NCBI GenBank assembly: GCA_027450185.1
Contig: DAIDKF010000003.1
Coordinates: 62,001 to 126,000 of the forward strand
Direction: 5' to 3'
DNA length: 64,000 bases
DNA from: Granulicella sp.
GTDB taxonomy: Bacteria; Acidobacteriota; Terriglobia; Terriglobales; Acidobacteriaceae
In this document: piece after piece, positions 61,889-63,799 of the stretch
Numbering within the stretch: the stretch's first letter is position 1
Layout of the letters: each line of letters opens with the position of its first letter
Position numbers and translations under genes: made by a program
Notes under the pieces: generated by a model
What the model was told of the DNA's origin: nothing
Databases searched by the model: none
What the model saw: the letters and a program-made list of their open reading frames with translations, nothing else

Positions 61889-62539
61889 TTAGCGCGCGCC
61901 GGGGCGCAGGGCGGAGTGGAGCAGGCCGAGGATGGCGTCGGCGGTTTGATCGAGGTTGAGGTGAGCGGTGTCGAGGGTGTGGGCGGCGATGCGCTCGTAG
62001 TGGGGGCGGCGGAGATGGAAGCGGCGCTCGGCGAGAGCGAGGTCGGCGAGGTTGGGGCGGGCGGTGGCGGCGGGGTCGGCGGCCTGGGCGGAGCAGCGGT
62101 CGACGAGGGTGCGGAAGGGAGCGGCGAGATAGATGACGGCGGTGTGCGGAGTCTGCTCAAGGAGGAGACGGTTGCCGAGAGCTTCGGGGGCGCCGCCGCC
62201 GAGGGCGAGGACGATGTTGCGCTGGCCAAGAAGGGAGGCAAGGGCGGCGGACTCGATGTGGCGGAAGTGAGCTTCGCCGTGCTCGGCGAAGATCTGGGGG
62301 ACGGTGCGGTGGTGGCGGGCTTCGATCTCGCGGTCGAGATCGAGGAAGCGCCAGCCGAGGCGGTCGGCGAGGAGTTTGCCGGCGGTGGTCTTGCCCGAGC
62401 CCATGAAGCCGGTGAGCACGATGCGATGGAGGACTGCGCGTCCAGCGAGGGCTGAACCTTCGCCGGGTTGCAGGCCTTCGCGGGGTTTCGGTTTGGTGGG
62501 CATGTCCTGGACTGGTAAAGGCAGTGTTGCTGTACTCAT
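61889..62539 (-). CDS. aroK: Shikimate kinase
   Basis: Phosphorylates shikimate in the common aromatic amino-acid pathway. 216 residues: a 38-residue extension (Pro/Lys-rich) precedes the kinase core, which usually starts the protein. P-loop GFMGSGKTT (44-52), shikimate/Mg ligands Asp67 and Asp69 in LDLDREIE, Arg93 and Glu96 in FRHIESAAL, and GGGAP (114-118) are intact. GGAG lies seven bases before the ATG. No aro neighbours. The upstream 230 bp form an apparent aromatic-amino-acid attenuation leader (see findings). Confidence 0.93.
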   Translation of the reverse strand: MSTATLPLPVQDMPTKPKPREGLQPGEGSALAGRAVLHRIVLTGFMGSGKTTAGKLLADRLGWRFLDLDREIEARHHRTVPQIFAEHGEAHFRHIESAALASLLGQRNIVLALGGGAPEALGNRLLLEQTPHTAVIYLAAPFRTLVDRCSAQAADPAATARPNLADLALAERRFHLRRPHYERIAAHTLDTAHLNLDQTADAILGLLHSALRPGAR

Positions 62540-62584
62540 TGTCGTCTCCGTTGGGGTTTCGGTGAAGCGAAGTTGTTTGGGGGC

Positions 62585-62618
62585 AAAAGAAAAACCGCAG
62601 ACCTTGGGGGCTGCGGCT
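62585..62618 (-). terminator. Intrinsic terminator in the aroK leader
   Basis: On the minus strand CCGCAG/CTGCGG (extended by A:U and G:U pairs) with a 10-nt loop is followed by TTTTTCTTTT. It stands between the aromatic leader peptide and aroK, with the T-run ending 45 bp before the aroK ATG. It would stop transcripts before the kinase gene unless an alternative fold prevents it. Confidence 0.8.
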
Positions 62619-62640
62619 CGGGGCTTGATTGGGTTCTCTA

Positions 62641-62733
62641 CTAGGTGGGATCAGAGAAGCGCACAACGCCGCCGGGCCGCTGGGGATACCAGAAGCAATA
62701 GGTAAATCGGCCGGTGGTGGGGCGCAGGTTCAT
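62641..62733 (-). CDS. Putative aromatic leader peptide of aroK
   Basis: 30 codons followed by a tandem stop (TAGTAG). Codons 10-16 read Phe-Thr-Tyr-Cys-Phe-Trp-Tyr (bases 62686-62706): five aromatic residues in seven, covering all three aromatic amino acids. No ribosome site precedes the ATG, but a candidate -10 hexamer lies seven bases upstream, so the mRNA may begin at the AUG (leaderless). A terminator begins 23 bp after the first stop codon. Stalling at the aromatic run for lack of charged tRNA would favour aroK expression. A conserved small protein of other function is the alternative. Confidence 0.65.
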   Translation of the reverse strand: MNLRPTTGRFTYCFWYPQRPGGVVRFSDPT

Positions 62734-62740
62734 TGAGATG

Positions 62741-62769
62741 ATGGTAACGCGAAGCGGGGGTGGTTGCAA
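62741..62769 (-). promoter_or_regulatory. Candidate promoter of the aroK leader
   Basis: On the minus strand TTGCAA (-35) and TACCAT (-10) are separated by 17 bp, each matching the sigma-70 consensus at four of six positions. Transcription would start at or near the leader-peptide ATG at 62733. Confidence 0.45.
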
Positions 62770-62816: not shown

Positions 62817-63104
62817 TCAGCTCTCGTCCCCGTCGTTGTGGATGCCGTCCTTGAGGCGGCTGGCGATGTTGGACCAGACGGCGTCGCTGGGGTCGTGGAT
62901 GGGCTCGAAGAGGCTTCTGGCCTGCTCGGCGATGGCTTCGAGGTCGCGGACGAGAGCGGCGCAGTTGGGGTTGGCGGCGAAGAAGGTGGCGAAGCGCGGG
63001 TCGTTGCTGATGGCGCCGCCGCCGGCTTCGAAGAGCTCGGGGAGAGATGCCTCGAACTCTTCCGGGGTCATGTGGTCGAGGTTGCGGGAGATGAGGTCCT
63101 TCAT
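62817..63104 (-). CDS. Small protein cotranscribed with an ECF sigma factor
   Basis: 95 residues, acidic, no membrane helix. It begins [20 protein letters not shown]; a single Cys and no zinc-finger pattern is seen. Its start overlaps the sigma stop by 4 bp. It occupies the position of an anti-sigma factor but lacks the usual HxxxCxxC, so an unusual soluble regulator is possible. Function not assigned. Confidence 0.6.
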
Positions 63105-63799
63105 CGCGCCACCTCCTTCTGGCCAGCGGCCACGGCGTGGGCTGCGGGCTGGGCCGATCCGTCGTGTGGAGCAAGGGCCTGGGGGTTGCGCAGGAGTTCG
63201 CGCAGTTTGAGGCGGGCCTTGTGGAGCTGGGATTTGCTGTTACCGGTGGAGCACTCAAGCATGGTGGCAATCTCATTATGCTCGAAGCCTTCGACGTCGT
63301 GAAGGACGAAGACCATGCGGTAGCCCGGGGGAAGCAGAGCTACGGCGCGTTCGAGGGTGACGCGGTCGACGGAGCCGGTGAGGGTCTGATCGTGGGAGCC
63401 GAAGTCGCGCCGGGGAGCGTCGTCCTCGGAGGGGCTGATGGTCTCTTCGAGGGAGACGAGCTGGAGGCCCTTCTTGCGCAGATGCATGAGGACGAGGTTG
63501 ACGGTGAGGCGGTGCAGCCAGGTGGAGAAGGCGCTCTCGCCGCGGAAGCTGCCGAGCTTGCGGAAGAGATGCAGGAAGGCGTCCTGGGTCATGTCCTCGG
63601 CCTCGGAGACGTTGCCGAGCATGCGGAGGCAGAGGGTGTAGACGCGGCGTTTGTGGAGAGCGTAGAGCTGTGCGAAGGCGTCGGGGTCGCCATTTCTGGC
63701 GCGCTCGATGGCATCAGCTTCGCCAGCGATGGGAGCGTTCCGCTTGAAGAAGCCGGGGTTCGGTTTCGTCTGCATTCTGAGTGGGCCCTGGAGTTGCAT
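63101..63799 (-). CDS. ECF sigma-70 factor (RpoE-like)
   Basis: 232 residues. Region 2 ([20 protein letters not shown], then [20 protein letters not shown]) and region 4 ([20 protein letters not shown], then [20 protein letters not shown]) are intact. The N-terminal start is uncertain between two ATGs eight codons apart (63799 and 63775). The Ala-rich C-terminus is followed directly by the overlapping small gene. It likely controls an envelope-stress regulon including the pair itself. Confidence 0.85.

Follow-up and report, generated by a model that had tools for sequence, protein, structure and literature searches.

The question raised by this locus is whether the shikimate kinase gene aroK is controlled through a short reading frame that precedes it and, if so, to which signal that frame would respond. 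The locus lies on the minus strand of the window, the stretch of 64,000 nucleotides from Granulicella sp. analysed here. The initial annotation had listed a promoter pair, an ORF, a TAGTAG double stop, a hairpin and aroK, all of which are present base for base, and had read them as an attenuator. On the comparative grounds set out below, the element is very likely a ribosome-mediated transcription attenuator of the trpL/pheL type that would sense charged Phe-, Tyr- and Trp-tRNA, and it probably belongs to an aromatic leader family of the Acidobacteriaceae that serves aroK, trpB, DAHP synthase and chorismate mutase/prephenate dehydratase genes.

Organisation of the leader and aroK

All features of the locus are on the minus strand. 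The most 5' of them is a -35-like hexamer, TTGCAA (62764..62769), whose TTG begins 36 nt 5' of the leader ATG; after a 17-nt spacer comes a -10-like hexamer, TACCAT (62741..62746), with 7 nt to the ATG. The leader ORF (62641..62733) starts with the ATG at 62733, comprises 30 codons and a TAG, lacks a Shine-Dalgarno sequence, is predicted to be leaderless and has the translation MNLRPTTGRFTYCFWYPQRPGGVVRFSDPT. Its codons 10-16 (62686..62706), which are the putative control codons, specify Phe-Thr-Tyr-Cys-Phe-Trp-Tyr (F10, T11, Y12, C13, F14, W15 and Y16), and the frame closes with the double stop TAG TAG (62643-62638). Three RNA segments and a terminator can be assigned to the same region. Segment 1, GCTTCTGG (62689..62696), is the 5' arm of a control-codon hairpin, as judged from covariation of the homologous stem in 53 leaders, and in the window's own leader it pairs with 62683-62676 at 7 of 8 positions. 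Segment 2, CCAGCGGCCCGG (62672..62683), contains the 3' arm of this hairpin and the 5' side of a candidate antiterminator, while segment 3, CCGAGCCGC (62613..62621), supplies the 3' side of the antiterminator and the 5' arm of the terminator. The predicted intrinsic terminator (62585..62618) is formed by AGCCGCAG/CTGCGGTT, with the stem CCGCAG/CTGCGG, and is followed by the T-rich tract TTTTTCTTTT (62594-62585). The gene aroK (61889..62539) has its ATG at 62539 and a Shine-Dalgarno sequence, GGAG, at 62546..62549; by eye, a GGAG is similarly placed in many loci of the genus. Its product matches the shikimate kinase family PF01202 of Pfam with 131.1 bits (cut-off 22.1), and its top NCBIfam matches are also shikimate kinases, yet below their cut-offs (103.5 of 186 bits).

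The region immediately 5' of the leader (62817-63799, minus strand) contains a gene of the sigma-70 family (Pfam Sigma70_r2 and r4) and then a 95-residue ORF with no Pfam match. Sequence similar to this region was seen by eye 5' of aroK in some other loci of the genus.

Two single-sequence approaches were uninformative here: a scan for promoter and terminator patterns picked up neither element of the leader, and single-sequence folding found it no more stable than shuffles (z -0.88). The case for the leader is thus comparative, not thermodynamic.

Conservation before aroK within the genus

A search for AroK in 61 genomes (the window's own and 60 relatives) yielded 26 aroK loci from 28 genomes of the window's genus. 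The leader is more than a chance arrangement, since the same element precedes aroK at 21 of these 26 loci; it is absent from the other five (L021, L022, L024, L025 and L026). In a second collection, the final joint covariance model (R3) detected a leader at 11 of the 80 AroK loci, and these are the 11 closest ones (L031-L041).

Alignment of the aroK leaders, a check proposed together with the attenuator reading, finds the aromatic run conserved. Up to the control codons, the ORFs of the genus differ in length by multiples of three (by eye). After these codons the frame is not kept: L001, L002, L004 and L012 read QRPGG or QRPAD from the RNA that gives PAARR in most others. Because the length differences come in threes and are then followed by frame shifts, the alignment indicates that the stretch through the aromatic run is kept as codons and the part downstream of it as RNA.

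A wider family across the Acidobacteriaceae

The first covariance model was built from the 21 aroK leaders of the genus, and in most genomes of the genus it revealed a second copy, located before trpB (for example MQFFFSPRFTPSFRYWPIVAASVE). This copy could be read in 22 of the 28 genomes, in one of them (L227) with a masked start, and it is present in all five genomes whose aroK has no leader. The assembly of the window's own genome is 54% complete; a TrpB search of it gave a distant match only, and no trpB leader was found. Later models were built from trpB leaders and then from combined aroK and trpB sets with their relatives, the last of which is R3. With covariance models, leader matches were obtained in 141 of 300 genomes of the family at an E-value of 1e-3, and in 210 of 398 sampled Acidobacteriaceae genomes at 1e-4; under these strict filters the remaining 188 of 398 gave no covariance-model match. 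A survey of the phylum gave matches in 32 of 297 genomes, six of which belong to two families outside the Acidobacteriaceae. Five of these six matches were read: they are rich in Phe and Tyr, as in MRKSFNNFSFYFYFSGKAAEVCVRIG and MFVDDRSRFYFYFYFPPSRGRGSMRAD, and the gene that follows is chorismate mutase or prephenate dehydratase.

Among the matches fetched, collapsing identical leaders and dropping repeat loci left 154 distinct leaders, with L227 (masked start, before trpB) and L300 (at the end of a contig, where no ATG was found) set aside. Downstream genes were assigned by their similarity to a single reference per gene, except for chorismate mutase, which had two; they are trpB in 55 cases, aroK in 46, DAHP synthase in 34 and chorismate mutase/prephenate dehydratase in 19. 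Every one of the 154 leaders read contains aromatic codons and is followed by an aromatic-pathway gene; the models were trained on aromatic leaders, which makes the aromatic richness partly a matter of construction, and the downstream genes are not part of the models. Representatives of trpB and of both DAHP synthase types pass the NCBIfam cut-offs, as does one of two prephenate dehydratases, and those of aroK and chorismate mutase pass the Pfam cut-offs and not the NCBIfam ones. The element is therefore wider than the initial annotation proposed, occurring also before trpB, DAHP synthase and chorismate mutase/prephenate dehydratase.

In two groups of loci chorismate mutase comes first after the leader, and the next gene encodes DAHP synthase in one (L209, L217, L265, L283, L284 and L286) and prephenate dehydratase in the other (L212, L216, L295, L270, L271 and L273). 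The weak matches of the R1 model (L137, L138 and L154-L158) showed no leader of this type before an aromatic gene. At 16 hisG and trpE loci of eight genomes the R3 model found no match, and inspection by eye of about 370 nt upstream, limited to attenuators of this kind, found no combination of leader and terminator. Upstream of trpE, genomes of the genus (L328 and L329, similar to a stretch of L327) carry a short His-rich, lipoprotein-like ORF, which resembles a small protein gene rather than an attenuator leader.

Codon content and the downstream gene

The aromatic fraction 5' of the conserved GCGG is 0.34-0.41 in the frame of the ORF and 0.03-0.14 in the other two frames. Within the ORF, the type of aromatic codon follows the gene that lies downstream. 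Trp codons are found in 55/55 leaders of trpB, 45/46 of aroK and 29/34 of DAHP synthase, and in 1/19 of chorismate mutase/prephenate dehydratase; the difference between the first and the last of these classes has a Fisher p of 2.6e-16, uncorrected for relatedness, and counting by genus (8/8 against 1/8, with genera assigned and tallied by hand) gives p 0.0014. The codon about 12 nt 5' of segment 2 is TGG in 51/55 trpB leaders and in 0/18 chorismate mutase/prephenate dehydratase leaders, 13/18 of which have Phe or Tyr there. Judged by their codons, trpB leaders are not specific for Trp, because Phe and Tyr codons are also present. A codon-phase substitution test gave no clear excess at third positions, with positions one, two and three differing about equally, partly because exchanges among Phe, Tyr and Trp alter the second base, and it is not used as support.

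In 80/154 leaders the first 60 nt contain the heptamer CGATTTA, which encodes Arg-Phe and is in the leader frame in every case; shuffles give fewer than 0.2 per class. Its distance to the hairpin varies among leaders, and the copy of the window is at 62703-62709 on the minus strand.

These data bear on whether the leader could act as a nascent-chain arrest peptide of the TnaC kind, which would sense free aromatic amino acids and stall independently of uncharged tRNA. A frequent Tyr-Trp pair and the Pro/Val-Ala-Ala tail of many aroK and trpB leaders would suit such a peptide. In many leaders, however, the tail is read in other frames, like RNA giving VAA, SSG or RPGG, and the aromatic residues vary with the downstream gene, which fits a codon-by-codon supply better; an arrest peptide is thus considered improbable.

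Control-codon hairpin, candidate antiterminator and terminator

Attenuators of the trpL/pheL type follow a scheme of alternative 1:2, 2:3 and 3:4 pairings. In an alignment of 53 leaders, the control-codon hairpin (1:2) appears as CCGCTAC/GTAGCGG or as variants such as CCGCTATTG/CAATAGCGG, with 85.9% of cells paired and 12 double-change cells; for the terminator (3:4) the corresponding figures are 95.5% and 43. For each of the two structures the covariation score, although inflated by related rows in the alignment, was reached by 0/500 shuffles, whereas the count of pairs showing a double change was reached by 35/500 (hairpin) and 48/500 (terminator). When the hairpin was slid by -3 or -1, as many double-change cells resulted (13) with a lower covariation score, so that its score exceeds all shuffles and all slides. 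Covariation of mutually exclusive hairpins had been named as a check on the attenuator reading; the structures that covary are the control-codon hairpin and the terminator. An outer stem round the control codons of the aroK leaders (columns 28-33 with 71-76), with 79.4% of cells paired, was dropped in favour of the inner stem, as two of its six pairs are broken in about half of the rows.

For the proposed antiterminator (2:3), the GCGGC:GCCGC contact that the initial annotation had guessed proved to be conserved, being complementary in 99.2% of cells, without covarying, as it is invariant. Invariance is expected if 1:2, 2:3 and 3:4 must all pair, and it leaves no room for a covariation test. 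The extension of the antiterminator in aroK leaders has four double-change cells, a number that a slid control equals or exceeds. GCGG is kept across species while its reading frame changes.

Promoter spacing and a predicted leaderless start

In the 154 leaders, a TANNNT ending 7-10 nt 5' of the ATG was found 108 times (9.2 in shuffles) and a TTG beginning 36-40 nt 5' of it 110 times (11.9 in shuffles), both spacings occurring together in 100 leaders (0.8 in shuffles). The Shine-Dalgarno core is not enriched (11/154 against 14.75 in shuffles). This promoter spacing and the absence of Shine-Dalgarno sites suggest leaderless mRNAs, and a start like that predicted for the window agrees with the spacing of most of the 154 leaders. 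The 7-10 nt spacing is rarer in leaders of DAHP synthase (9/34) and of chorismate mutase/prephenate dehydratase (10/19), and because it fits less often there, some leaders of these classes may have short untranslated leaders.

The initial annotation had held an attenuator on a leaderless RNA to be unusual. This is less so than supposed, since the leader RNA of trpL from Sinorhizobium meliloti begins at its ATG and is thus a known leaderless attenuator (PMC7298713). The same precedent invites a further explanation: like rnTrpL/peTrpL of Sinorhizobium, the leaderless RNA released at the terminator, or the peptide it encodes, would work chiefly in trans, and attenuation in cis would be secondary. 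The end of the peptide is conserved in neither sequence nor frame, and every copy read adjoins a pathway gene, both of which argue against a main role in trans; this is the least probable of the explanations weighed here.

Ribosome position and folding models

The effect of a ribosome was modelled by keeping the RNA on both sides of a footprint assumed to extend 15 nt from the P site in each direction, in 150 of the 154 leaders; the other four were dropped, as the search pattern did not locate their segment 2 or segment 3. In the nascent RNA, a ribosome at the next-to-last aromatic codon gives the antiterminator a P>0.5 in 136/150 leaders, as compared with 34 for a ribosome at the stop and 47 in the ribosome-free state; the antiterminator is favoured in 111/150 when the A site holds the first aromatic codon and in 56/150 when it holds the last. 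The trpB leaders show the switch most clearly (52/55 at the next-to-last aromatic codon, 3 at the stop and 15 ribosome-free), and in 45/55 of them a ribosome at the stop covers GCGGC, which is the case in 0/46 aroK leaders. Among the latter, the antiterminator is favoured in 41/46 when the ribosome is at the next-to-last aromatic codon, in 9 when it is at the last, in 20 when it is at the stop and in 21 when it is absent; the window's own leader gives values of 0.60, 0.07, 0.95 and 0.95, respectively. As modelled, then, the switch is clear in trpB leaders and not clean in aroK leaders, including that of the window. When the complete RNA is folded at equilibrium, the terminator is favoured in 139-149 of the 150 leaders at every ribosome position; a switch would therefore have to be kinetic and co-transcriptional. 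The footprint model leaves the default to termination in aroK leaders unexplained, fast 1:2 folding behind a moving ribosome being one possibility.

Conserved hairpins, the CGATTTA heptamer in about half of the leaders and the lack of a clean ribosome switch for aroK could all be taken to indicate a metabolite-binding RNA, either a riboswitch or of the T-box type, in which the ORF is incidental. The window has no Rfam match at the gathering threshold, however, and a lax threshold applied to seven loci returned one weak snoRNA match, below its cut-off. Aromatic codons are moreover enriched in the frame of the ORF only, and a ligand pocket leaves the gene-matched codon content unexplained. Such an RNA is accordingly very unlikely.

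Proposed mechanism

Under ribosome-mediated attenuation, the transcript would begin at the leader AUG or close beside it, and its leaderless 5' end would be loaded with a ribosome. With charged tRNA-Phe, -Tyr and -Trp in plentiful supply, the ribosome would clear the control codons, segment 2 would be covered or held in the 1:2 hairpin, and the 3:4 terminator would form. If any one of the charged tRNAs became scarce, the ribosome would stall within segment 1 and segment 2 would pair with segment 3 before segment 4 is synthesised, so that the RNA polymerase would read into aroK. The attenuator reading is supported by the conserved aromatic run, by the covariation of hairpin and terminator, and by codons that match the downstream gene; it is from the codons that a response to all three amino acids is deduced. 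A broader proposal, held to be somewhat more probable than its opposite, is that acidobacteria have a pathway-wide set of leaderless attenuators in which aroK, DAHP synthase and trpB leaders would work as a three-input OR gate for Phe, Tyr and Trp, the choice of leader codons setting which end products are sensed at each step, with Trp absent before chorismate mutase/prephenate dehydratase.

Relation to known leaders

The Sinorhizobium trpL leader senses one amino acid. One amino acid each is likewise sensed by the Escherichia coli trpL and pheL leaders (PMC11802643). All of these share with the acidobacterial element a leader ORF, control codons and a terminator before the structural gene, and differ from it in that a single acidobacterial leader carries three aromatic codon types. 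Closer in its target is aroR of Corynebacterium glutamicum, a Phe-Tyr-Phe leader peptide before the aroF (DAHP synthase) operon, where stalling raises transcription and Tyr availability has no effect (PMC11802643). As in acidobacteria, a leader peptide there precedes a gene of the shared pathway, but aroR has Phe and Tyr codons only and belongs to another phylum (PMC11802643). Acidobacterial leaders, in contrast, also precede aroK, trpB and chorismate mutase/prephenate dehydratase, have a predicted leaderless start and contain Trp codons in nearly all aroK and trpB copies. The trp attenuators of Actinobacteria resemble them in their complementary triples, with conserved positions common to antiterminator and terminator, and differ in relying on Trp codons; the same study reports no conservation of RNA structure upstream of operons for Phe or Tyr (PMC1262725). 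Finally, the uORFC-13-1 motif (Acholeplasma and environmental sequences) combines an upstream ORF that contains one or more Phe codons with a terminator, both in front of aroF; unlike the acidobacterial leaders it has a ribosome-binding site, and its 24 representatives precede only aroF (PMC8632094). The word Acidobacteria was not found in the main text of that paper (PMC8632094).

Acidobacteria are covered by a census of short leader genes from 2016, which in its accessible text names no such gene (PMC4833913). In the open-licence literature on leader peptides and attenuation in acidobacteria, Granulicella, shikimate kinase and aromatic genes, as far as its text was accessible, the element is not described. 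An aromatic leader at a shared step is less unusual than the initial annotation supposed, since a Phe-Tyr leader that controls aroF was already known in Corynebacterium (PMC11802643). Believed to be new are the three aromatic codon types within one leader, the phylum, the gene set with shikimate kinase, and a codon content that follows the downstream step.

Significance

The analysis assigns a likely function to a family with members in 210 of the 398 Acidobacteriaceae genomes sampled. The family supplies many instances in which attenuation would act on what appear to be leaderless RNAs, and a natural series in which one RNA frame bears different control codons before different enzymes, so that codon choice can be tested directly against the pathway branch. 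The RNA switch before aroK probably gauges how quickly ribosomes move over Phe, Tyr and Trp codons, and in many soil acidobacteria further copies precede other genes of this pathway.
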